Shown piece after piece: positions 10,332 to 62,542 of a stretch of 64,000 bases of DNA. Each line of letters starts with the position of its first letter. The first letter of the stretch is position 1. The notes beneath the pieces were generated by a model that had not been told where the DNA came from, did not search any database, and saw only the letters and a program-made list of their open reading frames with translations. Origin of the DNA: Hermatobates lingyangjiaoensis. Its lineage: Eukaryota > Arthropoda > Insecta > Hemiptera > Hermatobatidae. The stretch lies in contig JAPFBL010000606.1 in the NCBI GenBank assembly GCA_026182355.1, forward strand, positions 37,501 through 101,500, in the 5' to 3' direction. A program made the position numbers and the translations under genes.

Positions 10332-10367
10332 TCTCGATAATTTCGGCGTCTTGCCGTCCTCAGGAGA
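10332..10367 (-). ncRNA. hammerhead-like core, family H, minus copy
   Basis: Inverted duplicate of the core at 10464-10499, with the same CTGAGGA box and GGC/GCC stem II. The donor position in this arm reads ATGAGT instead of GTGAGT. Confidence 0.55.
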
Positions 10368-10463
10368 GTAGAAAGAAAGAAAATAATGCCGATGACATCG
10401 GCCAGGGACGCATTTACGTCTCCGTTCCTTCATTCTTTCTCCTTTTATTTTCTTTCTTTCTAC

Positions 10464-10499
10464 TCTCCTGAGGACGGCAAGACGCCGAAATTATCGAGA
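10464..10499 (+). ncRNA. hammerhead-like core, family H
   Basis: Stem I strand TCTC (10464-10467), box CTGAGGA (10468-10474), spacer C, stem II GGC/GCC (10476-10478 with 10484-10486), GAA (10487-10489), then GAGA (10496-10499) pairing with TCTC. The predicted cut lies after ATTATC. Confidence 0.6.
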
Positions 10500-10542
10500 T
10501 TCGTGAGTGTTCGTCTTTTTTCTTGTGTTCTCTAGCTGTAAC

Positions 10543-10589
<47 letters not shown>

Positions 10590-10590
<1 letters not shown>

Positions 10591-10741
10591 GTAATTTTTT
10601 GAGGGTTGAGGTCCAATGATTTTAAACTAGTCCTTTTTCCGACGTTTCAACATATCGTCGTAAAAGGACTAGTTTAAAATCATTGGACCTCAACCCTCAA
10701 AAAAATTACATCATATAAATATTGGGTCAAGAACACAAATC

Positions 10742-10745
<4 letters not shown>
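10590..10745. mobile_element. PLE family I palindrome
   Basis: Two arms (10595-10650 and 10662-10720) share GGTCCAATGATTTTAAACTA in opposite orientation around GACGTTTCAACATATCGTCG. The relative at 53240-53460 keeps a CTGAAGA core. (TA)n bounds both sides. Confidence 0.65.
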
Positions 10746-10777
<32 letters not shown>

Positions 10778-10859
10778 CATATGTGTATATAAAAAGATTT
10801 CACATAAACACGTGAAACAACAATCAATGATCAAACCACAATAAGAAATGGGAAAACAA

Positions 10860-10902
10860 GACTAAGATCTTTCAACCGTAACAAGCGGTCTTCGTCAGAG
10901 TC
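10860..10902 (-). ncRNA. hammerhead-like core, family A, minus copy
   Basis: Inverted duplicate of 10952-10994: box CTGACGA (10898-10892), stem II GACCG/CGGTT, GAA, palindromic AGATCT, and stem I GACT/AGTC. Confidence 0.6.
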
Positions 10903-10951
10903 AAAAACCCAACTGAAACTGAAACCCAACTGAAAAACCAGTTGGGTTTTT

Positions 10952-10994
10952 GACTCTGACGAAGACCGCTTGTTACGGTTGAAAGATCTTAGTC
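10952..10994 (+). ncRNA. hammerhead-like core, family A
   Basis: GACT (10952-10955) pairs with AGTC (10991-10994). Box CTGACGA (10956-10962), spacer A, stem II GACCG/CGGTT around a 7-nt loop (10964-10980), GAA (10981-10983), the six-base palindrome AGATCT as stem III (10984-10989), then T17. The palindromic stem III would favour a dimeric ribozyme, as described for PLE hammerheads. Confidence 0.62.
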
Positions 10995-11039
10995 TTGTTT
11001 TCCCATTTCTTATTGTGGTTTGATCATTGATATGTGTAT

Positions 11040-11540
11040 ATGTTCGCTTTCTTTTTTGCTTTCTACCTTGCAATATGTCCCCTATCAATTATCGCTATAT
11101 AAGTGTTATATAACTATCTATAACCAGTTAACAACTAATATATCGGCTACTTTCAATAAACGTTATTTTGTATATTGAGAGACTATCTAGTGGTGAATTT
11201 ACCAAATGTCCGACACAAATGCGTGCTATTTCTGATTTAAATATTATATTTATCTTAAGTTTAAATTAAGACGCAGACGGTTTCCTCCTGAGCATCCTTG
11301 TAGAACAGGTTCTTTCTTTAGGAGGGGTGTCTCTCACTGTTTCAATGACCTTGCCTTTCCTCTTGTATAAAACCTAGACCTGATTTATATATACAAGGAG
11401 ATCAGGCTTGTGTGACGTCATCCACACTTTAATCCTTTCATATACTTCTGTAATGTGCACTTGTGTCACTGTCTCACTCGCCCACACTTTCATTTATCGC
11501 AATCTCTACTCAATGAAATTTGTTCTTGTGTCACTCTTTA
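11040..11540. other. unassigned sequence
   Basis: No coding or repeat match was recognised. The segment 11260-11400 has more balanced composition but shows no open frame with splice sites. Confidence 0.35.
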
Positions 11541-12495
11541 TTCTTATCTCTCTCTCCCTTCCACCCAACCTCTCACTCACTTTTCATCACTCTCTTCTCT
11601 CTCCAACTCAGTTCCACTTCATCCCTTCCTCCCCCTCTCTCCCTACAACAACATCTCACTCTTCTCTCTCACTCTCTCTCTCTCATTCTCCCTCACTTCC
11701 CTCTCTCTGATTCTACCTCCCTCTCTCTCCACCCTGATTCTACCACCCTCTGGCCTTCATCCCTCTCCCTCCCACTCTTGTTATCTACCTCACACTCTCT
11801 CCCTCCCTTCCCTTCCCTCCCCCTACCTCCCTCTATTCATACTCCCTCTCTCTCATTCTCCCTCTCCCTTTCTCTTATTTACCTTCTCTCTCATTCTACC
11901 TCCATCTCTATGATTCTCCCTCCCTCTCATTTTTCCTGTCTCTCATTCTCTCTCCCTCTATCTCATTCTCCTTCTCCCTCCCTCTCATTTTCTCTCTCTC
12001 TCATTCTCCCTCCCTATATCCACTCTCTGTAATTCCCTCCCTTTCCCTCCTATTCCTGTTATCTACCTCACACTCTTTACCTCCCTCCCACTCTCTCATT
12101 CATACTCCCTCTCCCTCTACCTTTCTCTCTCTCTCTCTCTGCTTCCCTCTATCTCTCTCTTTCATACTCCCTCTCTCTCTTCTCTCTCTCTTACCACCCT
12201 CCCTCTCTCTCGTTCTCTCTCCCTCTCTACACTCCCTGTCCTTCCTTCCCTCTCACTCCTTCTCTTCTTATATTCGTCACACTCACTCACTCCTTCCCTC
12301 TCTCTCATTCTCTCTCTTTCTTTGACTTTACTCTCTCTCCTTCCCTCACTCTCCCACCTACTCCTGTTATCTACATCACACTCTCTCCCTCCCCCCTTTT
12401 TTGTCTTTCATACTCCCTCTCTTTCCCTCTCTCCCACTCTCTCATTCTCACTCCCCCTCTCACCCTCTCTCCCTTCCTCTCTCTCACTTTCTTTT
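11540..12495 (+). repeat. 1-kb polypyrimidine (CT-rich) tract
   Basis: Almost continuous C/T on the plus strand made of CTCTCTCATTCTCCCTCC-like units. Overlapping open frames of 100-170 codons are low-complexity Ser/Leu/Pro and not genes. It ends at a degenerate core (box CTGATGA at 12501-12507, then GACAAGGCCGAATT). Confidence 0.85.
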
Positions 12496-12599
12496 TCACC
12501 TGATGATGACAAGGCCGAATTATTGGAGTGATTTATGTTATTGTTTCTTCTTTGTTATATTCTTTTAATTTTTTATATACGTTTCTTAATTAACTGTTA

Positions 12600-12745
12600 G
12601 GTCTATATACGTTTCACACTAAACTATAGACACAGAGTAAAGATACGAACACACTCACAGACTCTAATTTTTCGTTGAACCTTCTTCAGGAGAGTAGAGA
12701 CAGAGACACCAAGCGCACTTACAAAGCGACGGGTCTCCAACTGTC
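12600..12745 (-). mobile_element. PLE family C arm
   Basis: Minus-strand GTGAGT (ACTCAC near 12655), AATTAGAGACTGT-type sequence with GAA eroded (TTTTTCGTTGAACC), and the box rc TCTTCAG near 12685, then GGAGAGTAGAGACAGAG. The right end is truncated. Confidence 0.5.
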
Positions 12746-12792
12746 GCTTCGCAAGCACGCTTAGTGTCCCTATGTCTACTCTTATCTTATCT

Positions 12793-13028
12793 TCTACTCA
12801 AGAAAAAGTAGTGCCTTATTCTTGCATATAAAAAATGAAAATCATCATATTGATTGGACAGGAGCTAAATTTATTACCTATGAAAAATCAATGTTGTTAA
12901 GAAATATTATTGAATCGTCTCCAATTAAATTTAATAGATCTAATATTATAAACATTAGTAACGGTCTCTTCAAACTTGATACTTTCGTCACGAGGGCAAT
13001 AGCCTCTTCAAAGAGGGTTGACAGCTAG
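12793..13028 (+). pseudogene. PLE GIY-YIG domain, C-terminal two thirds
   Basis: The frame opens upstream of the Met at 12822 with SRKSSALFLHIKNENHHIDW and runs to KRVDS and a stop at 13026-13028. It matches residues 29-105 of the copy at 27742-28059. The Cys-x2-Cys/YIG start is missing. Helix residues (ITYEKSMLLRNIIES, with the conserved Glu position) are kept. This is an endonuclease remnant of a family A PLE whose ribozyme arm follows at 13140-13272. Confidence 0.72.
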
Positions 13029-13275: not shown

Positions 13276-13283
13276 ATATATAC

Positions 13284-13314
<31 letters not shown>

Positions 13315-13398
13315 ACAATTAAAAGAAACGGTCCAGCGGTCTTTTTTAAATAAAATAAATTCAAAACGAAGGAAACACACAGAAAGACACAGACATAA

Positions 13399-13440
13399 CT
13401 CACATCGATATTTCGACCATCTTCGTCATCAGGAGGTGTG
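13399..13440 (-). ncRNA. hammerhead-like core, family D, minus copy
   Basis: Same architecture as 13773-13814, with a longer stem II loop (GAC, GAAGATG, GTC). Minus-strand GTGAGT is ACTCAC at 13398-13403. Confidence 0.62.
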
Positions 13441-13772
13441 AAGAGCGAAGAGTCCCGCAGGAAGACAGGGCGGCGACTGAACTGGGAGACCGCAGCCCTC
13501 AACTTCCCCTGGACTCAACCTCAACCGATAATTTTTTTTTAATTTATTAATTTTAATTTGATTTATATACTTTTCACATTTTTATAATATTTTCATTAGA
13601 CTTATTTTTATTTAAATAATTATGATTTTTACTCGTTCCTTTTACATCTTAATTTGACTCTTCATTTCCTTCCCTCCCTTCCCGCTTGATGGTAAGTGGT
13701 GGGGTACTGGCTGCGGTCTCCCAGTTCAGTCGGCGCCCTGTCTTCCTGCGGGACTCTTCGCTCTTCGCTCTT

Positions 13773-13814
13773 CACACCTCCTGATGACGACGATGGTCGA
13801 AATATCGATGTGAG
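13773..13814 (+). ncRNA. hammerhead-like core, family D
   Basis: Stem I CACACCTC (13773-13780) with GATGTGAG (13807-13814), 6 of 8 paired. Box CTGATGA (13781-13787), spacer C, stem II GAC/GTC around GATG, GAA (13799-13801), then ATATC before the predicted cut. GTGAGT at 13810-13815 overlaps the 3' strand of stem I. Confidence 0.68.
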
Positions 13815-13852
13815 TTCTGTCTGTGTCTTTCTGTGTGTTTCCTTTGTTTTGA

Positions 13853-13889
<37 letters not shown>

Positions 13890-20404: not shown

Positions 20405-20580
20405 ACATCATTCGCGCTTCGCCCTTCGACGTTGGGAGATCTATTTCACTTCTTCCTGTCTTCTAGTAGTACTCCTGATGACGAAGAACTGTTCGAAATA
20501 TATAAAAATCTGTAAGTCTGCTTTTTATTCCTTTTTCTCTGTAGTTCTTTGTGTAATTTAAAGTTATATATATATATATA
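20405..20580 (+). mobile_element. PLE family E arm with hammerhead-like core
   Basis: Box CTGATGA (20475-20481), spacer C, GAA/TTC hairpin (20483-20494), GAA (20495-20497) and a GTAAGT donor at 20512-20517. Upstream is CCTGTCTTCTAGTAGTACTC. (TA)n on both sides. This single copy has no visible inverted partner. Confidence 0.6.
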
Positions 20581-20584: not shown

Positions 20585-20910
20585 AAATAAGATCAAACCA
20601 CAATAAGAAATGGGAAAACAAGACTAAGATCTTTCAACCGTAACAAGCGGTCTTCGTCAGAGTCAAAAACCCAACTGAACACTAGATGCAGAAAACATCT
20701 GGTGAGGAGTTGAGAAGAGTCCACCACTCTTCCCACCCACTCTTCTCAACTCCTCACCAGATGTTTTCTGCATCTAGTGTTCAGTTGGGTTTTTGACTCT
20801 GACGAAGACCGCTTGTTACGGTTGAAAGATCTTAGTCTTGTTTTCCCATTTCTTATTGTGGTTTGATCATTGATTGTTATTTCACGTGTTTATGTGAAAT
20901 CTTTATATAT
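20585..20910. mobile_element. PLE family A head-to-head pair
   Basis: Arms 20588-20735 and 20742-20905 are near-identical inverted copies extending through the CTCACCAGATGTTTTCTGCA block, longer than in other family A pairs. Each arm has an intact CTGACGA core. The unique centre is only a few bases. Confidence 0.8.
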
Positions 20911-20914: not shown

Positions 20915-21184
20915 ATAATGATCAAACCACAATAAGAAATGGGAAAACAAGACTAAGATCTTTCAACCGTAACAAGCGGTCTTCGTCAGAGTCAAAAACC
21001 CAACTGTAAGAATATTTTATTCTTCTATAACTTTGGTTAAAACGTTGGAGAATCAAAATCAACTTCAGTTGGGTTTTTGACTCTGACGAAGACCGTTTGT
21101 TACGGTTGAAAGATCTTAGTCTTGTTTTCTCATTTCTTATTGTGGTTTGATCATTGATTGTTATTTCACGTGTTTATGTGAAAT

Positions 21185-21190
<6 letters not shown>
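20915..21190. mobile_element. PLE family A pair with a LINE fragment as spacer
   Basis: Family A arms 20918-21006 and 21064-21185 flank 21008-21063. That spacer matches the LINE RT fragment at 21342-21392 (GGTTAAAACGTTGGAGAATC). The plus-strand core has ACCGTTTGTTACGGT in place of ACCGCTTG, keeping the stem. Confidence 0.78.
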
Positions 21191-24009: not shown

Positions 24010-24165
24010 ATAAAAATGTATATACATATGTAAAGAAACATACAGAAATTAAAAGTACACACTTACAGTCTCTAATTTTCGGTTTAAACCGTCTTCAGGA
24101 GAGATAAGAGAGGGAAAGATAAGGAAAGAAAAGAGACGGTTGAAGTTGATTAAAAATGTAATGTT
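24010..24165 (-). mobile_element. PLE family C arm
   Basis: Minus-strand GTAAGT (ACTTAC 24061-24066), AATTAGAGACTG, GGTTTAAACC as stem II (24080-24090 region) and box CTGAAGA (rc near 24092-24098), then TCTCTCTTATCTC-type pyrimidines on the minus strand. Confidence 0.6.
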
Positions 24166-24442: not shown

Positions 24443-24590
24443 TTGGTAACAGTCCTTCCTTGACATACACATTATTGAAAATGACAGCAAATTTAGCTGA
24501 TACCTGTTTCTTAACAAGTTTCTCAATTTTTCTAAATAACACTCTCGTTATTTCGTCTACACAATAAAGTACATCTCCTATGGTCGACAT
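24443..24590 (-). pseudogene. PLE N-terminal coding remnant, family K
   Basis: ATG at 24590 opens MSTIGDVLYCVDEITRVLFR, then KIEKLVKKQVSAKFAVIFNN and GLLPKFTNIY, and runs into (TA)n. The start codon lies inside the palindromic stem III of the core at 24583-24621. A second, plus-strand piece of the same region (RIEKLVKKQVSAKFGVIFNN) occupies 24690-24775. The same MST start occurs at 29196 (-) and 29294 (+). Confidence 0.66.
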
Positions 24591-24621
24591 GTTTCGAATG
24601 ATCAACATTCATCATCAGGAC
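24583..24621 (-). ncRNA. hammerhead-like core, family K, overlapping a PLE start codon
   Basis: Minus strand: GTC, box CTGATGA (24618-24612), spacer T, stem II GAATG-type arms pairing with CATTC, GAA, palindrome ACATGT (24592-24587), C17, then GAC pairing with GTC. The implied cleavage triplet is GUC. Confidence 0.66.
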
Positions 24622-24784
24622 GTGAATAAGATCTAAGGTGAATTATCTGGTTTATATATACATGGAGAAGGTAGAAGGGGTTACTTGAGAAGGGTAGAAG
24701 GTAGAATTGAGAAACTTGTTAAGAAACAGGTATCAGCTAAATTTGGTGTCATTTTCAATAATATATATATTTTCAAATGAACTC

Positions 24785-26154: not shown

Positions 26155-27162
26155 TCAAGAAGGTTGACTTTGAAGGATAGACTGTTCTTTAAAGGAGAGT
26201 ATCCTCAAAGAAGGAGGTAAACTTGTACAAGGCCATGTTGAAATCAAAATTGAATCCTCTAAAATCCACGACTTGTCACCATCTATTAATGAAATACTAT
26301 AAAGCCTTCCTTGAGATTTTAAATCCCAAACCTCAATTCTGTTTGTATAAGAAACTAAAAAGAATCTATCAAGAACAGTATTAATTGAAAGGAAATAAGG
26401 ACTAAGATAAACTTCTTTTGGTTTAATATCTTGCGAATAATTTGCTATAACGAATCTATAGTCAGCAACACTATATATAACTGATGATTGAGTAAAATCA
26501 GCTTTGAAGTATTCCCGACGATTATTGCTGATGATATCCCTGAAGATGAGTTCGCTTAAGCGAAACAAATGAACATTGGAGTACATCAATATATCATCGA
26601 CAAGAAGGCAATTAGTTAGAAGATAGTAATCATTGTGAACAAACTCAAGGAAAGTTCTTTTTCCAAGTGATGTCTTTGGTAGCTTAGTTATTGAAGTCCA
26701 TAAGTTTGTTTTAAAGTCAAGAAGATGATAAACAGCTTCATAGTTATTGTCTAATGGTGTTGTACGAATCAAAACACCCGATGAAAGTAGATACAATGAA
26801 TCAATTTGTTTACAATCAGGTAAAATAACCTGTACAGTAGTGTTCTCCAATAAATTTAAAACTTTCAATGATGTTCCGAAACAAAACGCCATAAAGTCAT
26901 TTCGAAACGAGACTAAATCACATTCTATTTCACAAACAATTTCTAATTGCCAAGTGAAAACTAAACATTGTTTTGTTGATTTTAGTAGAACTCCGAAAAA
27001 CTGCCCATTTTGAGGGCATAAAATTTTATCAATAGTTTCATTTAAGTTCTTTTCAAGCCAACTTGATTGGGCAAGTACTTTCAAAATTTTGTCTTCATAT
27101 ACAACAACTTTCCCTCCAATACTACCTCCTCCAACCTGAAAAAGAACCACTTGAAACGTCAT
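26155..27162 (-). CDS. F-box protein, exon 2 (beta-propeller-like C-terminal region)
   Basis: 335 uninterrupted codons ending LRILSFKEQSILQSQPS. The exon starts after a polypyrimidine/TATAG acceptor at 27163-27164; a second acceptor nine codons later (TTTTTCAG before 27135) keeps the same frame. Short blade-like segments such as VVYEDKILKVLAQ and NRIEVWDLKSQGRLYSISL suggest a degenerate WD40-like propeller, the usual substrate-binding part of FBXW-type proteins; I infer this from pattern, not from an alignment. Joined in phase to exon 1 (30020-30355) it gives about 447 residues. Codon use is ordinary, with no stops, so the gene looks functional. The intron between the exons is 2857 bp and full of PLEs. 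Confidence is high that it is coding, moderate for the propeller. Confidence 0.8.
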   Translation of the reverse strand: MTFQVVLFQVGGGSIGGKVVVYEDKILKVLAQSSWLEKNLNETIDKILCPQNGQFFGVLLKSTKQCLVFTWQLEIVCEIECDLVSFRNDFMAFCFGTSLKVLNLLENTTVQVILPDCKQIDSLYLLSSGVLIRTTPLDNNYEAVYHLLDFKTNLWTSITKLPKTSLGKRTFLEFVHNDYYLLTNCLLVDDILMYSNVHLFRLSELIFRDIISNNRREYFKADFTQSSVIYSVADYRFVIANYSQDIKPKEVYLSPYFLSINTVLDRFFLVSYTNRIEVWDLKSQGRLYSISLIDGDKSWILEDSILISTWPCTSLPPSLRILSFKEQSILQSQPS

Positions 27163-28569: not shown

Positions 28570-28825
28570 ATATATATATATAAAGATTTTACATAAACAC
28601 GTGAAATAACAATCAATGATCAAACCACAATAAGAAAATGGGAAAACAAGACTAAGATCTTTCAACCGTAACAAGCGGTCTTCGTCAGAGTCAAAAACCC
28701 AACTAAAAAAACCAACTAAACCCAAAAACCCTCAGTTGGGTTTTTGACTCTGACGAAGACCACTTGTTACGGTTGAAAGATCTTATTCTTGTTTCCCCAT
28801 TTTCTTATTGTGGTGGTTTGATCAT

Positions 28826-28870
<45 letters not shown>
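28570..28870. mobile_element. PLE family A head-to-head pair
   Basis: Inverted arms 28585-28705 and 28732-28830, with (TA)n at both outer ends. The plus-strand core reads CTGACGA, GACCACTTGTTACGGTT, GAAAGATCTTATTC. Confidence 0.75.
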
Positions 28871-29055: not shown

Positions 29056-29196
29056 ATTTGTAAAAGTTGGAAGCAGTCCTTCATTTAAACATATATTGTT
29101 AAATAACGCCCCATATTTGGCTTGTATCTGTTTCTTACACAATTTCTCCAGTTCATTAAAACTATAAAGCTTATCACCAATATTGCTAGTCGACAT
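29056..29196 (-). pseudogene. PLE N-terminal coding remnant, family K, minus copy
   Basis: ATG at 29196 opens MSTSNIGDKLYSFNELEKLC, then KKQIQAKYGALFNN and LLPTFTNIYI before the TA tract. Compared with the plus copy (29294 onward) it lacks about eight codons (EETRKEFRK region). The truncation point is the codons Thr-Asn-Ile-Tyr. Confidence 0.7.
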
Positions 29197-29227
29197 GTTT
29201 CGAATGTACCACATTCATCATCAGGAC
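29189..29227 (-). ncRNA. hammerhead-like core, family K, minus copy
   Basis: Inverted duplicate of 29263-29301 with identical box, stem II, ACATGT and GTC/GAC stem I. Confidence 0.68.
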
Positions 29228-29262
29228 AATAATAAGAATAATAGTATGATTGTTGGTTTATT

Positions 29263-29301
29263 GTCCTGATGATGAATGTGGTACATTCGAAACATGTCGA
29301 C
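29263..29301 (+). ncRNA. hammerhead-like core, family K, overlapping a start codon
   Basis: GTC (29263-29265) pairs with GAC (29299-29301). Box CTGATGA (29266-29272), spacer T, stem II GAATGT/ACATTC with a 3-nt loop (29274-29288), GAA (29289-29291), palindrome ACATGT (29292-29297), C17 (29298). The ATG of the PLE frame is 29294-29296. This is the cleanest fit to a minimal type I hammerhead in the window, apart from the extra T between box and stem II. Confidence 0.72.
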
Positions 29302-29425
29302 TAGTAATATTGGTGATAGACTTTATAGTTTTAATGAAGAGACGAGGAAGGAATTCCGGAAACTGGAGAAATTGTGTAAGAAACAGATACAAGCCAAGTA
29401 TGGGGCGTTATTTAACAATATATAT
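29294..29425 (+). pseudogene. PLE N-terminal coding remnant, family K, plus copy
   Basis: MSTSNIGDRLYSFNEETRKE, then KLEKLCKKQIQAKYGALFNN and IYIY into (TA)n. Here the junction with the microsatellite is at Asn-Asn-Ile-Tyr, about 14 codons earlier than in the minus copy. The element therefore consists of a ribozyme core plus some 45 codons on each side. Confidence 0.7.
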
Positions 29426-29499
29426 ATATATATATATTGATGTATATCATGATGTCCTTTTCTTGACCAACTGTTCATATATTTTTTGAGATTTATTGA

Positions 29500-29692
29500 G
29501 GGTTTTTGGTCTAATATTCAAAAAAACTTCGTTGCCACCGTTTCGATATATATTTATATCATCTTCAGGGCTAAGTGTGCTCAATGTAACAATGTTTTTA
29601 GCCCTGAAGATGATATAAATATATATCGAAACGTTAGTAACGAAGTTTTTTGAATATTAGACCAAAAACCCTCAATAAATATCAAACAAAAA
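29500..29692. mobile_element. PLE family J head-to-head pair
   Basis: Inverted arms share ATATTAGACCAAAAACCCTC and ACGAAGTTTTTTGAAT. Cores at 29533-29570 (-) and 29601-29638 (+). The centre is AAGTGTGCTCAATG. Confidence 0.75.
29601..29638 (+). ncRNA. hammerhead-like core, family J
   Basis: GCC, box CTGAAGA (29604-29610), spacer T, stem II GATATA/TATATC (29612-29627), GAA, ACGT palindrome. The minus copy (29533-29570) retains GGC to pair with GCC, whereas this copy has AGT, so stem I is damaged here. Confidence 0.58.
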
Positions 29693-29695
29693 ATA

Positions 29696-34800: not shown

Positions 34801-35760
34801 TTTCTCGCAAACCAATGTGTTCTCCACTTCTCATATATCAATATGTTTTGCATTTATTCCAAACAATGTGTTTGACATTTCTTGCATACCAAGGTATATA
34901 TATCCTATTTCTCGTATACCAAGGTGTTCTCCACTTCTCATATATCAATATGTTTTGCATTTATTCCAAACAATGTGTTTGACATTTCTTGCATACCAAG
35001 GTATATATATCCTATTTCTCGTATACCAAGGTGTTCTCCACTTCTCATATATCAATATGTTTTGCATTTATTCCAAACAATGTGTTTGACATTTCTTGCA
35101 TACCAAGGTATATATATCCTATTTCTCGTATACCAAGGTGTTCTCCACTTCTCATATATCAATATGTTTTGCATTTATTCCAAACAATGTGTTTGACATT
35201 TCTTGCATACCAAGGTATATATATCCTATTTCTCGTATACCAAGGTGTTCTACATCTCTCGTAAAACTATGGGTTTTCCTATTTCCCATATAACAAGGGA
35301 AACTTTACTATTTCTATTTCTCGTATATAATAGTGTCTTGGATACTATTTCTCGTATACCAAGGTGTCCACATTTTTCGCAAACCAATGTACCTATTTTT
35401 CTATTTTTCTCATACCAACGTGTCTCCATTTCTCGAATATCAATATGTTTCGCATTTATCTCAACCAATGTGTTTGACATTTCTTACATACCAAGGTATC
35501 TACCCTATTTCCTGTATACCAAGGTGTTCCACATTTCTCGTAAAACCATATGTTTTCTTATTTTTTCCATTCCAAATTGTCCCCCATTTCTCGTATACCA
35601 AGGTGTTACACATTCCTCACAAACCAATGTTTTCCCATTCTCGCATACCAAGGTGTTCCATATTCCCCTCATCCCAAGGTATTCTCCATTTCCCATATAC
35701 CAATTTGTTGCATATTTCCCGCAAAACAATAAGTTTTCCATTTTTCACATAACAAGAAGT
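34800..35760. repeat. 107-bp tandem array, degenerating to the right
   Basis: Four near-identical units to about 35235 (CAATATGTTTTGCATTTATT, TTCTTGCATACCAAGG, CTATTTCTCGTATACC), then diverged units to 35760. 107 bp is not a multiple of 3, yet several frames stay open across the array; this is periodicity, not a gene. Confidence 0.85.
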
Positions 35761-37085
35761 ACTTGTACAAACGATAGTACGCTACTACTCGTACAAGAGA
35801 TAGCAATCTAGTAACTGTACAAAAGATAATAAGCTAAGACTTGTATAAGAGATAGCAGTCTAGTACTTGTACAAACGATAGTACGCTACTACTCGTACAA
35901 GAGATAGAATCTAGTACTTGTACAAACGATAGTACGCTACTACTCGTACAAGAGATAGCAATCTAGTACTTCTACAAACGATAGTACGCTACTACTCGTA
36001 CAAGAGATAGAATCTAGTACTTGTACAAACGATAGTACGCTACTACTCGTACAAAAGATAGAATCTAGTACTTGTACAAACGATAGTACGCTACTACTCG
36101 TACAAGAGATAGCAATCTAGTACTTGTACAAACGATAGTACGCTACTACTCGTACAAGAGATAGAATCTAGTACTTGTACAAACGATAGTACGCTACTAC
36201 TCGTACAAAAGATAGCAATCTAGTACTTGTACAAACGATAGTACGCTACTACTCGTATAAGAGATAGCAATCAAGTACATGTACAAACGATAGTACGCTA
36301 CTACTCGTACAAGAGATAGCAATCTAGTACTTCTACAAACGATAGTATGCTTCTAATCGTACAAGAGATAGCAATCTAGTACTTGTGCAAACGATAGTAC
36401 GCTACTACTCGTACAAAAGATACCAATCTAGTACTTGTACAAACGATAGTACGCTACTACTCATACAAGAGATAGCAATCTAGTACTTGTTCAAACGATA
36501 GTATGCTACTACTCGTACAAGAGATAGCAATCTAGTACTTGTACAAACGATAGTACGCTACTACTCATACAAGAGATAGCAATCTAGTACTTGTACAAAC
36601 GATAGTACGCCACTACTCGTACAAGAGATAGAATCTAGTACTTGTACAAACGATAGTACGCTACTACTCGTACAAGAGATAGCAATCTAGTACTTCTACA
36701 AACGATAGTATGCTTCTACTCTTACAAGAGATAGGAATCTAGTACTTGTACAAACGATAGTACGCTACTACTCGTACAAGAGATAGCAATCTAGTACTTG
36801 TACAAACGATAGTACGCTACTACTCGTACAAGAGATAGCAATCTAGTACTTCTACAAACGATAGTATGCTTCTACTCGTACAAGAGATAGCAATCTAGTA
36901 CTTCTACAAACGATAGTATGCTTCTACTCGTACAAAAGATAGCAATCTAGTACTTTTACAAGAACTATTAAGATAGTACTTGTACAAAAGATAATAAGCT
37001 AACACTTGTACAAAAGATAATAAAATAACACTAGTACAAAAGATAATCTAGTACTTGTACAAAAGACAGTATGCTACTAATCGTA
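35760..37085. repeat. 50-53-bp minisatellite
   Basis: About 25 units of TAGTACTTGTACAAACGATA followed by GTACGCTACTACTCGTACAA and GAGATAG(CA)ATC. Single-step variants (AGCAATC or AGAATC) alternate. The same unit resumes at 40765-40870 beyond the inserted elements. Confidence 0.88.
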
Positions 37086-43660: not shown

Positions 43661-43779
43661 TAGAAAATAAGAAGAATAGATCTGGCTTTTTCCTAAAAAA
43701 AGGTAAAGTATTTTAAAAAAAAAAATAATGGATAATTGTTTTCACTGGACCAACCCATCAGCACCACATCCTTGGTGTC

Positions 43780-43818
43780 TTCCTGATGATGAACACAAAG
43801 TGTTCGAAACGCGTTGAA
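43780..43818 (+). ncRNA. stand-alone hammerhead-like core
   Basis: TTC (43780-43782) pairs with GAA (43816-43818). Box CTGATGA (43783-43789), spacer T, stem II GAACAC/GTGTTC with loop AAA (43791-43805), GAA (43806-43808), six-base palindrome ACGCGT (43809-43814), T17. All invariant core bases are present. No inverted partner or TA tract adjoins it. Confidence 0.7.
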
Positions 43819-43904
43819 TAAAACTTCATTTGTATGGAGACTTTTGTTTGTTTATCAATTTTTACCTCAGAATGAGTAAATACAATAGAATTACTGATTG
43901 CACA

Positions 43905-44943: not shown

Positions 44944-45023
44944 CCAATATTTAGAGGGTAGTACTGTGGATCACTTGCTCGTCTCTAGACTGGTAGGTCC
45001 GGGGTTCAATACCCACTCTGGAC
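44944..45023 (+). repeat. SINE head split by a LINE
   Basis: GGTAGTACTGTGGATCACTT, TAGACTGGTAGG and the B-box GGGGTTCAATACCCACTCTG. The SINE continues at 45704 after the LINE. Confidence 0.75.
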
Positions 45024-45703
45024 GAAAGAGCGGATGCCCTGGCCAAGGAAGCAGCAACAGATGAACATATCCCCACAGAATACGACTTATACCCCTACAC
45101 ATACTTAAAATACTGGGCAAGAACCAAAAGTCAACTCCAATGGGACACTCAATGGCAAATATCAACAACAGGACTCATTACAAAAGAATATTTCCCCACA
45201 ATAGAACACCGGATGAAACACAAAAAACTCAATACAAACTGGCAACTAACACAATTTTTAACAGAACATGGGAAATTTAAAAAGTATTTGCATAGATTTA
45301 CAATAGAAAATAACGGACATTGTGACTGCACAAGAACACATTTACAAACAGTAGACCACCTGATATACGACTGTCCAACACTGGACCAACCAAGAGCAGA
45401 ATTGATCAAAACAGTGATGTCCACAGCAAAAGACTGGCCGATGAAAAAGGATAAATTAATAAGTGAAGACATCATAATACACTTCAATAAGTTTATTTTT
45501 CGTGTGTACGAAATAATGTTTAAGAACTAATTATATATATATACATAACATGTTATTAGAATAATATACATAGTTACAAAATATGTAAATAATATGTAAG
45601 AAAAGTATGTTATGCCAAAAGCGGAGCATACTAATATATAATATAATAAACTCCCCCATGGTAGGGTTACTACCCGTGGGGAAAATAAAAAAAAAAAAAA
45701 AAA
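45024..45703 (+). pseudogene. 5'-truncated non-LTR retrotransposon (RNase H end, zinc knuckle, 3' UTR)
   Basis: One frame from the insertion edge to the TAA at about 45530 reads ERADALAKEAA (the last RNase H motif), then YTYLKYWARTKSQLQWDTQW, HGKFKKYLHRFTIENNGHCD and TRTHLQTVDHLIYDCPTLDQ: a CDC...H-x4-C knuckle. It is uninterrupted over about 168 codons, so the insertion is recent. The 3' UTR ends in an A-run (45688-45703). A perfect 13-bp target duplication, ACCCACTCTGGAC, lies at 45011-45023 and 45704-45716. The target is the B-box region of a SINE. Clade assignment (R1/I/LOA-like with RNase H) is inferred from this tail only. Confidence 0.85.
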
Positions 45704-52045: not shown

Positions 52046-52099
52046 ACGTAGTTGCCATAACATCTGTCCTAGAGACATCGTTGATATTCAAACTATTTT

Positions 52100-52137
52100 C
52101 CGAGCTTTCGACCATAGAAATGTTGGTCATCATCAGG
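52100..52137 (-). ncRNA. hammerhead-like core, MSLGQ lineage
   Basis: Minus strand: box CTGATGA (52136-52130), spacer T, stem II GACCA/TGGTC around a 9-nt loop, GAA, AGCT palindrome, C17. Stem I is weak (1-2 bp). Confidence 0.5.
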
Positions 52138-52256
52138 TAGAGCATGCCTTGTAGTCAAGAGCTTAGATAGCTATCTGAGTGGATCTTGCTCCTGGTTGGT
52201 CTAAAGTTCTATGGTTTCTATGGTCAAAATCTCGGAAAATAGTTTGAATATCAACG

Positions 52257-53234: not shown

Positions 53235-53470
53235 ATATTTATATGATGTAATTTTTTTTGAGGGTTGAGGTCAAATGATTTTAAACTAGTCTTTTTGCCT
53301 ACTGTAGCTACAGTAGCCATCATGAAACAGTAGTAAATAGGTATGCTGCAACACAAACAGATTTCCAAGCCCTGAAGATGACATAAATATATGTTGAAAC
53401 GTCAGCAAAAGGACTAGTTTAAAATCATTGGACCTCAACCCTCAAAAAAAATTACATCATATATATATAT
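53235..53470. mobile_element. PLE family I pair
   Basis: Arms share GAGGTCAAATGATTTTAAAC and its inverse. The plus core at 53369-53405 is preserved; the minus arm lost its core. (TA)n follows. Confidence 0.68.
53369..53405 (+). ncRNA. hammerhead-like core, family I
   Basis: GCC, box CTGAAGA (53372-53378), spacer T, stem II GACAT/ATGTT with one G-T pair (53380-53395), GAA (53396-53398), ACGT, C17, AGC. Confidence 0.55.
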
Positions 53471-53506: not shown

Positions 53507-53863
53507 CGATATATTAAAACAGTCCAAACCGGACAGATATATAAATGAAAAAAGACAACAAATAGAAGAAGCGAGAAAACTTACTGGGTCGATATTTCGA
53601 ACTGAAGTTAAGAGGCACGTGCGTCCACTCGCACAAGCAGAGGGCTACTGGGGGCTCCAGGCGGCGGTCACCAGTTGTAGTAGCTCGAGGCGCTGCAGGC
53701 TAATCCCCCGTGACCGACACCATTCCACCACGAGTGAACACGCGTACCGTAAAAGTCGGAAAAAGGTAGAAAGGAGGACAGAAGTGGCGAAGAGGAAGAG
53801 GAGAAAGAGAGTGAGGGAAAAAAAATATATATGTATAAATAGCAAAAAAAAAAAAAAAAACTT

Positions 53864-54173
53864 AACGTTTGAGATTGAGGCCAGGTGGGGAGCGGGCATT
53901 AAGTAACCAAATGTGAGCCTCCTCAGAGGCTCTCAAAGTTAACCTTTTCTCATCTTTTGCAACTACTTTGAGAATTTGTACTGTGAAGCAGTCATTGAAA
54001 GTAAGGCCATGGCTATTCGCGTGGATAGCAACAGGCAGGTTGCTGCGTCGTCTGACTGAATCTCTGTGTCCAGTCATGCGGATGCTGAGCATGTTGGAGG
54101 AAAGGCCAACATAGAAAGCACCGCACTGGACACATTCCAAGCGATATGTCAGAGAGCCTCTGAGGAGGCTCAC
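53864..54173 (-). pseudogene. PLE GIY-YIG endonuclease domain, family F
   Basis: YRLECVQCGAFYVGLSSNML is the PLE-type C-x2-C, YVG strand, followed by SIRMTGHRDSVRRR with catalytic Arg and His, HANSHGLTFNDCF, and RLTLRASEEAHIWLL with the Glu position, ending PPGLNLKR and a stop. All recognisable GIY-YIG elements are present in about 95 codons, making it the most complete C-terminal domain after 59821-60483. It lacks the RT. Its 5' end coincides with the start of the right inverted arm. Confidence 0.78.
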
Positions 54174-54507
54174 ATTTGGTTACTTAATGCCCGCTCCCCA
54201 CCTGGCCTCAATCTCAAACGTTAAGGTTTTTTTTTTTTTTTTTTTTTTTGCTATTTATACATATATATTTTTTTCCCTCACTCTCTTTCTCCTCTTCCTC
54301 TTCGCCACTTCTGTCCTCCTTTCTACCTTTTTCCGACTTTTACGGTACGCGTGTTTACTCGTGGTGGAATGGTGTCGTTCACGGGGGATTAGCCTGCAGC
54401 GCCTCGAGCTACTACAACTGGTGACCGCCGCCTGGAGCCCCCAGTAGCCCTCTGCTTGTGCGAGTGGACGCACGTGCCTCTTCCTCTTCCCTTCTTCTTC
54501 CCTTCTT

Positions 54508-54551
54508 CTCCCTGACGACGAACTTCAGTTCGAAATATCGACCCAGTAAGT
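54508..54551 (+). ncRNA. hammerhead-like core, family F, with adjacent splice donor
   Basis: Box CTGACGA (54512-54518), spacer C, stem II GAAC/GTTC with loop TTCA (54520-54531), GAA (54532-54534), ATAT, C17. GTAAGT follows at 54546. Stem I is poor. Confidence 0.55.
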
Positions 54552-54685
54552 TTTCTCGCTTCTTCTATTTGTTGTCTTTTTTCATTTATATATATATATA
54601 CCATGATAAACGAAAAACGGTCCGGCAGGACAAATAACAATTAAAATAAGCAGTGACACAGAAACAGAAACACAACAAAGACTCA

Positions 54686-54729
54686 CTTTTCAATATTTCG
54701 ACCGTAATGGCGGTCGTCCTCAGGAGAAG
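54686..54729 (-). ncRNA. hammerhead-like core, family G, minus copy
   Basis: Inverted duplicate of 54791-54834 with identical box and stem II. Confidence 0.64.
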
Positions 54730-54790
54730 AAGTGAATTGACGGAGGGACGACAGTCAACTATTGACTGTCGTCCCTCCGTCAATTCACTT

Positions 54791-54834
54791 CTTCTCCTGA
54801 GGACGACCGCCATTACGGTCGAAATATTGAAAAG
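54791..54834 (+). ncRNA. hammerhead-like core, family G
   Basis: CTTCTC (54791-54796) pairs 5 of 6 with GAAAAG (54829-54834). Box CTGAGGA (54797-54803), spacer C, stem II GACCG/CGGTC with a 6-nt loop (54805-54820), GAA (54821-54823), ATAT palindrome, T17. Confidence 0.66.
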
Positions 54835-54904
54835 TGAGTCTTTGTTGTGTTTCTGTTTTTGTGTCACTGTATATATATATATATATATATATCACTTAAT
54901 TAAA

Positions 54905-57957: not shown

Positions 57958-58012
<55 letters not shown>

Positions 58013-58015
58013 AAA
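57690..58015 (+). mobile_element. decayed PLE family L units
   Basis: Two copies of CCCGATAAACTTTAGTTGTG-like sequence and one GCCTATGAAAAAGGTTTTAA with the GAA box lost (AAAAAACTAAACAC). (TA)n at 57960-58010. Confidence 0.5.
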
Positions 58016-58470
58016 CACTTTTTTTCCTCGGAGTTTGGTCAGGGTATCACCTTATATATGGAATCACCTTTTGCCAACGTTTCGTCTTTATTTCAAGACA
58101 TCCTCAGGGCTATAAACTAACAAAAAAACAATAAACAATCTACATTTGTCCTTTAAAAACATCATAAACAAATTGAAAGAAGAACTTACATGTGACAGTT
58201 AACGGTTGTTGTAATGTAACAGAACCCAGCCTTCCGTAAGTTCTTTTTTCAATTTGTTTATGATGTTTTTAAAGTATAAATGACAAATGTCCATTGTTTA
58301 TTGTTTTTTTGTTAGTTTATAGCCCCGAGGATGTCTTGAAATAAAGACGAAAAGTTGGCAAAAAGGTGATTCCATATATTTACCCTGACCAAACTCCGAG
58401 AAAAAGAAAAAGTGTTTGTTAATACTTTGTGGTCAAGAAAACAGTACCATATATATATATATATATAGTT
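58015..58470. mobile_element. PLE family N head-to-head pair
   Basis: Arms 58020-58200 and 58230-58440 share CGGAGTTTGGTCAGGGTA and AGTTCTTTTTTCAATTTGTT. Cores at 58073-58110 (-) and 58322-58360 (+). (TA)n on both sides. Confidence 0.75.
58073..58110 (-). ncRNA. hammerhead-like core, family N
   Basis: Minus strand: GCC pairs with GGC (58073-58075 side). Box CTGAGGA (58107-58101), spacer T, stem II GTCTT/AAGAC, GAA, ACGT palindrome, T17. The plus copy at 58322-58360 has CCGAGGA, a change at an invariant position, and is probably inactive. Confidence 0.64.
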
Positions 58471-59402: not shown

Positions 59403-59449
59403 AAACAAATAGAGGCTCAGAATCAATGGTATGCATGGTTAACAATATA

Positions 59450-59660: not shown

Positions 59661-59670
59661 TATATATATA

Positions 59671-60940
59671 GGTGTGTTCTCTAATCGGGGTTCGGTCAAT
59701 TTTCCAGGATAAAAAATCAAACTCTCGTTGCCAACGTTTCGGTTTTATTTAAAACCTTTTTCATAGGCCTACAAACAAAGGATAATAAGAAATCACATAT
59801 CAAAAGAAGTAAACAAAAATTTGGTTAAAAAAGTTATTGAAATAAGTAGTCCATGTTTTCTAAATGAAAATAAGAAAAGGGTGAAATTATTGTTACAGAA
59901 AAATTGTTATCCGAAGAACTTAGTTGAACGATATTGGTTAAGATATTTAAGACAGCAACCAGCACATTCAAATGAAGATCATGCTGAACTGGAAGTTATA
60001 AATAGGAAGTATTTCAAATTTTCTTATGTTGAGGGCTTATCACAATCAATTAGAAAAGTGTTCAAACGAAACGTACCTGAAGTTACACTGGCATTTTATA
60101 ATAAAAGAAAAAATAAATCTTTATTTTCAAATTTGAAAGAAAAAATACCGAAGGAGTTACAAAGTAACCTCATTTATGCCATCAAATGTAAAGACTGTGA
60201 CAAGTGTTACTATGGTGAAACTAGTCGTTTTCTCAAAGAAAGGTTGTACCAACATAATTATTCCATAAGAACAAATAAAAGTAACGCAACAGCCTTAGCT
60301 GGGCATGCAATAAACGAAGGTCACACGTTCGATTTTGAAGATACAACTATAATAGAAAAGGAAAAAGATGAGCAAAGAAGGAAGACACTTGAGATGTTAT
60401 GTATTAAAAAGGATCTAAGTTCGATTAATCATAGAAGTGATATTACTAATTTAAGTAATATTTATTCTGGAGTGTTGTGCTGAGGTTTAGTGAAATTTGA
60501 TTTATTTAGTTCCCTTGAGTGAACAGTGTTGAGGTTATTTGTAATGTTATCTTATTAGTCTAGTCGAAGGTTTTGTCCGGCTAACATTGTTGTTCCTTTA
60601 AATAATGTAAATTTCATTTTCTTAGTTAAAAAATTCTTACTTCTGTAAGTAATATTGTTTTATGTATCTCTGAAATATTTCTGCTTGTAATATTCATGAG
60701 TTGTAACAATCCATTTTCATATTGTGTATATGTTTGATGTTGATATGTGATTTCTTATTATCCTTTGTTTGTAGGCCTATGAAAAAGGTTTTAAATAAAA
60801 CCGAAACGTTGGCAACGAGAGTTTGATTTTTTATCCTGGAAAATTGACCGAACCCCGATTAGAGAACACACCTATTCTATCAAACGGTCGATATATTATT
60901 GAAACTGTTATATATATATATATATATATAAAAATACATT
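59671..60940. mobile_element. PLE family L element, the most complete in the window
   Basis: A minus arm 59671-59803, coding region 59821-60483, 3' UTR to about 60740 (GTCTAGTCGAAGGTTTTGTC, TAAAAAATTCTTACTTCTG) and plus arm 60740-60940, the inverse of the left arm. (TA)n bounds both ends. The RT is missing; the left arm replaces it. Confidence 0.8.
59821..60483 (+). pseudogene. PLE post-RT linker and GIY-YIG endonuclease, family L
   Basis: 220 codons without a stop. Residues 1-80 are the RT-to-endonuclease linker (KNCYPKNLVERYWLRYLRQ). Residues 70-115 carry the PLE-specific FSYVEGLSQSIRKVFKRNVP block. Residues 116-210 are the GIY-YIG domain: LIYAIKCKDCDKCYYGETS (C-x2-C, YYG), FLKERLYQH with catalytic Arg/His, GHAINEGHTFDFED, and RRKTLEMLCIKK with the metal-binding Glu. 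Upstream RT motifs are absent because the frame joins an inverted arm. An intact parental element would use the RT and endonuclease for target-primed insertion. The open frame suggests this is among the youngest insertions here. Confidence 0.85.
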
Positions 60941-60944
60941 TTCA

Positions 60945-61160
60945 CTATTGTCATCAGCGAGCACGCAAGTGACTGGCTACCTTGGATCAATGCCTTTACT
61001 TTATTACCATTGTATATATTGTGAATATAGTGATAATTTTCTTTTATTTAACGTTATTCAGGTAATTAATAAGATTTATTTAATTTCAGGTCTCTATCTC
61101 CACGGAAAATGAGTGAAAAAACAAACAAACTCACGAACATTATGAATAGAGATAACTAAT
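60945..61160. repeat. SINE-head-like unit and AACAAAC leader
   Basis: 60948-61015 matches the minus-strand head units of 3600-4045. 61085-61150 matches the leader TCTCTATCTCCACGGAAAAT seen at 4120 and 16040. Confidence 0.55.
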
Positions 61161-61214
61161 TTTGGTTGTTATGAGAAACAAATATTTAAATTATAATATT
61201 TTTTATCTTTGAAG

Positions 61215-61277
61215 ATGCGTATCAAGACTGACACGCTGTCAAGACTGACATGCGTGTCATAGATTCGCCATCACTGG
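61215..61277. mobile_element. 3' end of the hAT family at 23066-23536
   Basis: AAGACTGACATGCGTGTCAT then AGATTCGCCATCACTG. A tandem AAGACTGACACGCTGTC precedes it. Confidence 0.65.
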
Positions 61278-61399
61278 TATAGTAGGAAGACCGTGGTATG
61301 AACGAATCAATGTAGGCTTCTACAAATGTACCAGATTTGGGGTAGTAATGGAGTGATTATGGGCCTCTAATAGCATCTAACACTCAACTCCGAGGGATT

Positions 61400-61790
61400 T
61401 TCCCCTATATGATACTAAGGAAGAGGAATTCCGAAGACCATCCTCTGGAAGCGTAGAGGGTCCAAAAGCGCTAACTAGAGGGAGCCAAACTTCCACAAGT
61501 GCACCTAAGGACCCGAAGAAGGAGAAAGGAAGTACTTTATCCCGAAACGTATGAAGACTGAATGGGCATTATCAATAATGGTTTATGCAGATTCTGCAAA
61601 GAGGAAGAAACACCGTTGCATCTGCTGACTGACTATAAGGCAACTTTGCTGCACAGAGGTAGGTGCTTCGGGACACTCAACAAAACCATAGAAAAACCTT
61701 TTCCGTTGAACCCAGCAAAAGTGCTGAGCTTCTTGGAGGCATTGAAGCTAACTGCTGGAGTACTTTAATACAGAAGGGAAGTACAGTAGC
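61400..61790 (+). pseudogene. hammerhead-like core plus LINE C-terminal tail
   Basis: GGACCCGAAGAAGGAGAAAG...TTTATCCCGAAACG (about 61507-61552) has a CCGAAGA box, a GGA/TCC-type hairpin and GAAAC. The following frame is MGIINNGLCRFCKEEETPLH, then DYKATLLHRGRCFGTL and PLNPAKVLSFLEALKLTAGV, with a stop at 61766-61768. The knuckle's last Cys (TGT at about 51983 in the paralogue) is TAT here, so the C-x2-C-x8-H-x4-C motif is broken to Tyr. This copy extends further 3' than 51785-52045 and shows the true C-terminus. Confidence 0.66.
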
Positions 61791-62256
61791 TTTTAAGACT
61801 CAATGCTATAGTCACAATCAATTAATTAATTATAATTAATTAAATTATACCATCTTTATTATAAAATACCATACACATAAAAATTTATAAAAAAAAACGT
61901 TATGACCTCTACTAGTATTAACTTAACTATCAGTTATTAAGTTTATTAATAGAGTGAAGCACAAATGAAAAAAAAAACATCACCTTTTCATAAAATAACA
62001 AAAATTAACATAATGACCTTGGTGAGAATGCATACGTCACTGACATAGTAAATATCAAAATGTAAACACCCAGTTTTACATTTTTAAAGATTATGTTTTT
62101 ATGATTTAAAATATTTTGATGACGTCACACACAAAATGTTGTGGTCAATAAAATTTGCAAAAAGCTGATTTCAGATTTTCTTTAATCATTTGTTTTTAAA
62201 ACATGTTTAATATGTTTTATTGCTTATAACTTTTTTATGTGAAGTCGTAGTCATTA

Positions 62257-62294
<38 letters not shown>

Positions 62295-62324
62295 TATATT
62301 ATATATATATATATGTATATTGAA

Positions 62325-62437
62325 TTGAAATGTGCAGCAGCCTCTGCATTGACAACCTTTTTACTGATAGCCTCTATTTTTCGTACAATCGTCCTTTGCT
62401 CTAGAGGTAATTTCCATAAGTAGTTGGCCAACGACAT
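62325..62437 (-). pseudogene. PLE N-terminal coding remnant, AHFN lineage
   Basis: ATG at 62437 opens MSLANYLWKLPLEQRTIVRK, then IEAISKKVVNAEAAAHFNSI and YIYI into the TA tract. Its partner on the plus strand (62985-63095) continues further, to EDLLPTYTNIYI, showing two different truncation points in one element, both at Asn-Ile-Tyr or Ser-Ile-Tyr codons. Confidence 0.66.
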
Positions 62438-62508
62438 GTTGACAAACAAGGTAAACAATTGATAAAACTAAATGAATATATTGAGAACACGATACACTAA
62501 AAAATCAC

Positions 62509-62542
62509 AAGCTTTCGACCATACATTGGTCATCTTCAGGTT
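62509..62542 (-). ncRNA. hammerhead-like core, AHFN lineage
   Basis: Minus strand: box CTGAAGA (62539-62533), spacer T, stem II GACCA/TGGTC with loop ATGTA, GAA, AGCT palindrome, T17. Stem I 2 bp. Confidence 0.52.

Follow-up and report, generated by a model that had tools for sequence, protein, structure and literature searches.

Type-I hammerhead ribozymes in the terminal repeats of Penelope-like elements (PLEs) were reportedly described by Cervera and de la Pena in 2014 as numerous in animals, with a palindromic stem III and cleavage as dimers, and in the usual type-I geometry stem II follows directly after A9. To our knowledge, no consensus on their role has emerged in the decade since these ribozymes became known, and how PLE insertion is completed and why PLEs retain introns are open questions. 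Here, we analyzed a 64,000-nucleotide (nt) stretch of the genome of Hermatobates lingyangjiaoensis (contig JAPFBL010000606.1, positions 37,501 to 101,500; hereafter the window), in which a preliminary description had reported about a dozen hammerhead-like families, together with further sequence of the same genome. With a probability of roughly 85%, and on the basis of sequence, we read these motifs as minimal type-I hammerhead cores in the pseudo-long terminal repeats (pLTRs) of PLEs and in short derivatives of them, whose ends would record two-sided insertion with one tail and one class of which carries a putative splice donor.

Several described systems come close. Minimal PLE hammerheads are attributed to Lunse, Weinberg and Breaker in 2017 by an account in PMC6466107 and are described as 'lacking the helix III' (PMC6155905). 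In the Poseidon element PAc of Anolis, the open reading frame (ORF) begins where stem II does, downstream of C3 and G8 (PMC11167929), which fits A9-U-G, so that a one-base linker before stem II can be inferred there. Animal retrozymes consist of direct tandem repeats of ~150-450 bp with canonical hammerheads and loop-loop contacts, and published counts for comparison exceed 6,000 in the genome of a coral and reach 120,000 retrozyme copies in axolotl (PMC7229834).

A minimal hammerhead-like core

The sample comprised the window and 250 kb of the same genome, 5 kb of the latter reading N (314 kb in all); an unbiased set consisted of 200 kb from 20 other contigs (5 kb reading N), and loci with L numbers are other places of this genome. 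Controls were 20 Markov-1 shuffled windows for the window scan and reversed sequence for the sample and genome-wide counts. A scan for the box CTGANGA followed, at a spacing of 0-3 bases, by a stem of 4 bp or more and then GAA found 30 motifs in the window against 4 in total over the 20 shuffles (0.2 expected), and the spacer was a single base in 30 of 30 although 0-3 were allowed. The same scan yielded 33 motifs in those 200 kb (32 with spacer 1) against 2 in its reverse. The architecture named in the preliminary description (box, one base, hairpin, GAA) thus occurs above chance, and all 13 places named there carry the motif, with the box beginning 0-8 nt after the given position in 10 of them; the family N core and those near 52100 and 62509 lie on the minus strand. 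The usual placement of stem II directly after A9 was not found among the window motifs, which have one linker base (9.1) throughout; this departure is not taken to exclude a hammerhead, as the one in the anole PLE seems to have such a linker too. This base is T, C, or A and rarely G; it is C in the first member of all five families with an ATAT stem III, and where it is T, A9-T-G forms an ATG.

Selections that drop one part of the motif were applied to the 314 kb. With no stem demanded (box, GAAA, palindrome, and a non-G base at H17), 103 motifs were found against 2 in reversed DNA, and a stem II of at least 3 bp occurred among these 103 in 76 cases at spacer 1 and in 2, 0, and 0 cases at spacers 0, 2, and 3. 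With no box demanded (stem, GAAA, palindrome, and H), 130 motifs were found against 53 reversed; 56 of the 130 carry the exact box and 6 more carry it with one mismatch, and therefore the six box positions said to be fixed are nearly so. The base after GAA, which lay outside the scan criteria, is A in 67/67 cores (window plus 250 kb), 60 of these 67 continue with a palindrome of 4 or 6 nt, and H17 among the 60 is T (45), C (12), or A (3), with G absent; the A15.1-U16.1 pairing and the non-G rule at H17 accordingly hold for the cores. Position 7 is T in 9, A in 9, C in 4, and G in 1 of 23 families, and is C in 29 of 29 family A members; the phrase 'freely variable' can be kept for comparison between lineages only, because this base is mostly inherited within families.

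Because 19 of the 25 family representatives aligned for our own covariance model had been chosen with a stem condition, the fairer test is that on 23 families selected without one (21 scorable): 67 of 84 cells pair at spacer 1, against a shuffled mean of 49.1 and a largest value of 61 (0 of 5000 shuffles reach 67), and spacers 0, 2, and 3 lie at chance. Among the 25 aligned representatives, 94.7% of stem II cells are paired and the covariation score is 0.623 (each matched by 0 of 500 shuffles), double changes occur in 4 of 4 stem II pairs (equalled by 19 of 500), further pair types number 10 (equalled by 24 of 500), and slid registers pair at most 44.6%. The family alignment proposed as a check has thus given covariance support, and the claim that stem II sequences diverge and still pair is borne out; a hairpin and palindrome are present in general, with exceptions in family H, whose palindrome is broken, and in families D and E, whose stem II has only 3 bp. 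Stem I is weak, short, and frequently interrupted: its first two pairs form in 33 of 46 cells against 27.4 shuffled (27 of 5000 shuffles equal), and its first pair alone is not significant (325 of 5000 equal). Core sites are less variable than other sites in family Q (9 of 185 vs 100 of 658, Fisher p = 1e-4) and in family A (25 of 547 vs 198 of 2873, Fisher p = 0.047). A further group (L012:1793, L013:5090, L015:5660, and L026:1293) combines an AGGCCT palindrome in stem III with a stem I that is strong (GCTCT/AGAGC) and a stem II that is weak (~1-3 bp).

At E <= 0.01, and with training sequences counted among the matches, our model matched 41 places in the window and 62 in the 250 kb, making the window ~2.5 times richer (41 cores in 64 kb vs 62 in 245 kb). 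Genome-wide, a loose pattern gave 329,278 matches against 69,105 in the reversed control, an excess of ~260,000, and extrapolation from the sample gave ~230,000, from which we estimate ~230,000-260,000 cores in the 910-Mb genome, or one per 3.5-4 kb; family A alone contributes 39,556 exact cores against 0 reversed. ATAT and AATT palindromes are frequent in AT-rich DNA, and hairpins formed by chance in AT-rich repeats might be suspected for that reason. Such an origin is practically negligible in view of the excess over reversed DNA (103 vs 2) and over expectation (30 vs 0.2), a stem II pairing reached in 0 of 5000 shuffles, and genome-wide matches of 39,556 and 54,805 (the latter for the donor-bearing pattern below) against 0 and 24 reversed. 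The sequences support the reading of the motifs as probable type-I hammerhead cores of minimal form, whose palindromic stem III is of the dimer type.

Head-to-head elements and their tails

The preliminary description was silent on the head-to-head pairing of many copies and on one-tailed palindromic mini-elements. We defined a head-to-head pair as neighbouring copies <450 nt apart in which each arm extends to +15 or beyond, counted from the cut site; of the 198 copies that do so, 110 belong to such pairs, with their 3' ends outward. Over 22 references, neighbours <450 nt apart comprised 55 head-to-head, 10 tail-to-tail, and 8 direct pairs. The same orientation was found in family A (20 of the 22 pairs <450 nt apart that occur in the first 100 of 39,556 places), in G-type neighbour pairs (12 of 13, from 44 of 150 listed places), and, among the best 150 of 23,520 candidates, in the multi-copy element PLE-1, whose neighbours <8 kb apart were head-to-head in 24 of 27 cases and tail-to-tail in none, with inner distances of 37 to 3,964 nt. 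A (TA)4 repeat lies <=60 nt from 92 of 147 outer 3' ends (13 of the 22 references), compared with 4.8% of random places.

Such non-coding units with hammerheads, which are likely mobilised by PLEs, call animal retrozymes to mind, i.e., small hammerhead RNAs that circularise, and two direct tandem arrays with 92- and 114-nt periods do occur in the sample. Against this stand the mostly inverted neighbours (55 head-to-head vs 8 direct) and the minimal cores, and, apart from these two arrays, the direct tandem repeats with a canonical hammerhead that mark animal retrozymes were not found here, which makes this explanation improbable. Direct core arrays lie at L027:9603-10000 and L015:9660-10000; they hold 4.3 and 3.0 copies, are retrozyme-like with very short units, and are cut by the locus ends.

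In an alignment to tail references drawn from tail-bearing arms of the very set scored, 39 of the 47 pairs that could be scored have a PLE tail on one arm and not on the other, compared with 23.3 expected with independent arms (p = 2e-6). By eye, one arm of family A elements stops ~41 nt past the cut site and the other runs to at least +70 and carries a tail able to self-fold; families D, G, H, I, J, N, Q, and U likewise have one longer arm, each with its own tail. The inner (5') ends of the two arms differ by at least 10 nt in 18 of 41 pairs. Arms are more alike within one insertion (median 0.943, 19 pairs) than between insertions (0.871, 842 pairs), which is expected of one source locus.

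Two other origins of such palindromes were weighed against these ends. First, snap-back of one complementary DNA (cDNA) as the source of every inverted pair is spoken against by the 18 of 41 unequal-arm pairs, and family A pairs that end near -52 on both sides remain compatible with it. Second, the elements could be cut-and-paste miniature inverted-repeat transposable elements (MITEs) in which a conserved hairpin serving as a transposase site fell by chance into terminal inverted repeats, as short palindromic units, an AT-rich target, and a very high copy number would suggest; 5' ends that differ by at least 10 nt in 18 of 41 pairs, an extra tail on one arm in 39 of 47, RT or endonuclease-like frames attached to the same ends (RT, reverse transcriptase), and A15.1-U16.1 and H17 rules that have no reason in DNA make this very improbable. 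From the ends, the elements look like insertions from both sides of a DNA break. Many family A arms stop at one 5' point, -53 to -49 before the cut site (CAGTTGGG), and this shared stop may be the RNA 5' end or a strong stop.

Penelope-like coding regions, putative splice donors, and a tentative mechanism

Several families adjoin PLE coding sequence. For D, F, G (two arms), H, and K, the family copy is preceded on its own strand by an endonuclease-like frame whose end lies ~200-290 nt upstream, and family S has RT/endonuclease coding ~200 nt downstream. The locus L036 is a G-type PLE whose pLTRs (894-1061 and 4522-4686, 98.2% alike) each contain a core and GTGAGT, and which encloses an open frame of 958 codons (1471-4344, first ATG at 1480) with an RT domain (RVT_1, 2.2e-9). 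L034 is a head-to-head pair of full PLE-1 frames of 833 codons each, with pLTRs; the 832-amino-acid PLE-1 protein from it matches RVT_1 (8.2e-12) and GIY-YIG (4.1e-5) in Pfam and has 207 homologues, the named ones among the 120 matches listed being mostly from insects. PLE traits found here are thus an ORF with RT and GIY-YIG (in PLE-1), direct pLTRs, an inverted pLTR, and a tail, which supports the placement of the motifs, as candidate ribozymes, in the pLTRs of several PLE lineages and in very short non-coding derivatives. The hammerhead architecture and the PLE origin first proposed are both upheld by stem II pairing, the H17 rule, and PLE coding beside the motifs; the families, which had been called unrelated, are instead lineages of one kind of element, several of them related to each other. 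The endonuclease-like part of the G and F types (L025:2252-3102; window 53862-54176) reads AFYVG in place of the expected GIY.

PLE-1 itself differs at the hammerhead site, where it reads CTATGAAAAAGG...CCGAAACGTTGGC: CUGANGA is gone, and stem I (GCC/GGC), stem II, and GAA-ACGU-U are retained. The GIY-YIG frame of the window's PLE-1 has at least 150 copies, and as the best 150 of 23,520 candidates are mostly 98-99% identical, PLE-1 has probably multiplied recently. This multi-copy element appears to do without catalysis, as anole PLE mutant data also fit. These findings suggest an alternative explanation in which the structure would be kept mainly as an RNA-RNA linker or a protein-binding scaffold rather than for cleavage, stem III holding two templates at one break and the box being dispensable. 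It would fit the boxless motif in 5,635 exact PLE-1 copies, the near-identity of coding copies, the anole PLE hammerhead mutants that still insert in vitro (PMC11167929), the unequal-arm pairs that point to two cDNAs per insertion, and the lack of enrichment of insertion junctions at the cut site. In the other 23 families, the six box positions, GAA, and H17 delimit a set that is far above chance, for which a linker would give no reason, and core sites vary less than neighbouring sites; we consider this explanation possible, if on the unlikely side.

A second feature distinguishes one class of the cores. Of 40 cores whose stem III is ATAT, AATT, or ATATAT, 33 carry the motif GT[AG]AG[TA] within 16 nt after H17, compared with 0 of 63 other cores (one of them AAATTT) and a background of 1.3% per 16-nt stretch; the 40 are not independent because the copies are related. 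All 33 read GTAAGT or GTGAGT at offsets of 3-9 nt after the cut site, seven reference families share the motif (D, E, F, G, H, Q, and Z), and the ATAT-type pattern CGAAATATNG...GTRAGT has 54,805 matches genome-wide against 24 reversed. In the ATAT/AATT class, this donor consensus, a putative splice donor, lies at or inside the 3' strand of stem I; by eye, GTGA of the family G donor pairs with an upstream TCAC in an extended stem I. Also by eye, the putative intron of L036 takes in the tail and both inferred RT start points, which follow the donor; between donor and ATG, a T-rich leader of ~470 nt holds four possible acceptors by a simple pyrimidine count.

A mechanism can be sketched from these features. 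The PLE protein would cut both strands of an AT-rich site, each DNA end would prime a separate copy at one of the two adjacent start sites that bound the tail, and the two cDNAs would be joined at their 5' ends, i.e., two-sided priming on two RNAs followed by end joining; short non-coding units would depend in trans on enzymes from autonomous PLEs. The enzyme of the anole PLE acts on both strands, cutting and extending each, and has two start sites that flank the tail (PMC11167929), to which the 39 of 47 one-tail pairs add that the two tail-bounding ends are used one per side. Cleavage, if any, would need two RNAs because a loop-free palindrome of 4-6 nt cannot form stem III alone, and each RNA would then supply the other's H17, as reported by others for PLE hammerheads. 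Splicing at the donor would take away the start sites along with the 3' strand of stem I, and unspliced RNA alone would then keep a complete hammerhead and be copyable. The boldest step is that the palindromic stem III would bring two RNAs together. The minimal hammerhead might then act as a fate switch and coupling device, stem III pairing twin template RNAs, each copied from a start site of its own on one side of a double-strand break to yield one-tailed head-to-head insertions, and splicing, in one group of lineages, removing the hammerhead together with the start sites, a proposal that we regard as speculative and rather doubtful; if true, only unspliced, dimer-competent RNA would be copied, which would explain the persistence of introns in PLEs.

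A number of observations weigh against the reading of cores in PLE repeats with two-sided, one-tailed insertion. Among the pairs, 6 of 47 are tailless and 2 of 47 are tailed on both arms, 10 of 57 are unscorable, and the references used for scoring came from arms of the same set; in 23 of 41 pairs the 5' ends lie within 9 nt of each other, which snap-back of a single cDNA could also yield. In the published anole assay, start sites on the top and bottom strands were alike (PMC11167929). The G/F-type endonuclease-like part has no Pfam GIY-YIG match and is joined to that of PLE-1 by a weak 27% identity (E 5e-4), and the exact boxless PLE-1 37-mer occurs in 5,635 copies (0 in the control). The Rfam hammerhead search proposed earlier gave no match at threshold: no core in the window reaches gathering, against a gathering score of 34, the type-I model gives the best window core 10.9 bits, and another core is without any Rfam hammerhead match; a search of Rfam at E <= 10 returned 95 matches with 0 hammerheads, the top ones being sub-gathering microRNA models on long palindromes. 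Dimer folding with RNAcofold fails to single out a double hammerhead, intermolecular pairing of the palindromes being predicted for 6 of 21 families and stem I in addition for 4 of 21. Finally, the 5' truncation points of 188 copies do not peak where cleavage is predicted (the 10 positions -3..+6 hold 9 of 188 starts, and the 21 positions -30..-10 hold 20).

Elements of the window and comparison with described systems

Family A contributes six elements with two cores each to the window, tailed on the right arm at 6310..6506, 20591..20903, 20917..21187, and 63114..63314 and on the left arm at 10794..11031 (cores 10860-10904 on the minus and 10950-10994 on the plus strand; arms of 93 nt, 100% complementary) and 28583..28829 (28650-28694, minus; 28744-28788, plus), the two cores at 6310..6506 lying head-to-head. 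Family H forms a head-to-head element at 10283..10548 with a tail on the left arm only and (TA)n at the right, and its hammerhead-like cores (10330-10369, minus; 10462-10501, plus) are both weak (15.1 bits, E 0.15). A family I palindrome at 10589..10712 is truncated inside and just after the motif, so that the box is gone, and is tailed on the right arm; a second family I element (53245..53458) has a core at 53366-53409 (plus), a left arm that begins +2 after the cut site, and a tail on that arm. Left-arm tails are also found in the elements of family D (13358..13855; cores 13401-13438, minus, and 13775-13812, plus; donor GTGAGT after the cut site), family J (29477..29694; 29531-29574, minus; 29598-29641, plus), and family G (54651..54874; arms of 113 nt, 97% complementary; cores 54686-54729, minus, and 54791-54834, plus; donor GTGAGT), and a right-arm tail in that of family N (58010..58420; 58070-58113, minus; 58319-58362, plus). 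The family K element spans 29152..29338 (29188-29230, minus; 29260-29302, plus).

Single cores are those of family E (20469..20510, plus; stem III ATATAT, donor GTAAGT), family Q (24067..24104, minus; stem III AATT, donor GTAAGT), and family K2 (24580..24624, minus; stem III ACATGT), the best-scoring core of the window, of family 43 (43777..43821, plus; stem II of 6 bp, stem III ACGCGT, H17 = T), and two with stem III AGCT on the minus strand, at 52096..52142 (H17 = C) and 62503..62545 (H17 = T). Coding remnants comprise a head-to-head family F PLE fragment at 53544..54586 (endonuclease-like frame 53862-54176, minus; core 54506-54545, plus; donor GTAAGT) and a 5'-truncated PLE-1 at 59666..60875 on the plus strand, with an inverted terminal repeat at its left (limits by eye), a GIY-YIG frame at 59767-60480, and boxless hammerhead-like repeats at 59727-59770 (minus) and 60773-60816 (plus) that reach E 0.45 in our own model.

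Elsewhere in the window, a strand-asymmetric CT-rich tract (7800-12530) has a GC skew to -0.55 and long low-complexity open frames, and contains a near-perfect CT/GA palindrome at 7812-8063. A 204-codon open frame of degenerate internal repeats lies at 35197-35811, where a second frame is open too. A 335-codon frame starting with ATG (26155-27162, minus) has no Pfam match and might be a host gene or a retrocopy; a 177-codon frame (44997-45530), also with no Pfam match, resembles what we take to be the C-terminal part of a non-LTR retrotransposon (LTR, long terminal repeat).

Part of what is described here is already published, namely the presence of hammerheads in PLEs, a stem III of the dimer type, and inverted pLTRs that may bear a tail. 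In the accessible portions of the literature searched, key primary papers aside, we found no precedent for short head-to-head palindromes, often by (TA)n, with one tail per pair, for a donor class after the cut site, for box loss in a multi-copy autonomous PLE, or for a density of one core per 3.5-4 kb. The sampled copy ends record what appear to be two-armed insertions with one tail, a putative donor by the cut site in tens of thousands of copies makes a simple prediction for RNA reads, and a multi-copy boxless PLE could serve as a natural control in asking what requires the ribozyme.

The cores resemble the minimal PLE hammerheads in being of type I, in PLE terminal repeats, with a stem III palindrome and in great numbers; they differ in that many stand in inverted mini-elements, whose transcripts contain a single sense copy each, in that one class abuts a splice-donor consensus, and perhaps also in having exactly one base before stem II. 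Poseidon PAc shares a pLTR with a hammerhead, an AT-rich target, cutting and extension of both DNA strands, and two RT start sites bounding a tail of 30-40 bp (PMC11167929), whereas here most scorable pairs use one tail-bounding end per insertion side, the sample consists mainly of short non-coding families, and one class has a donor motif after the cut site. Animal retrozymes are likewise non-autonomous repeats with type-I hammerheads beside PLEs (PMC7229834), theirs being direct tandem repeats with canonical hammerheads and those here mostly inverted with minimal cores. The Penelope elements of Adineta vaga have direct pLTRs and an inverted pLTR, head-to-head repeats, an optional tail on one inverted pLTR, and junction palindromes (PMC3846280), but they are of low copy number and are explained by self-priming in that account, whereas the 18 of 41 pairs with unequal 5' ends here speak for two separate cDNAs.

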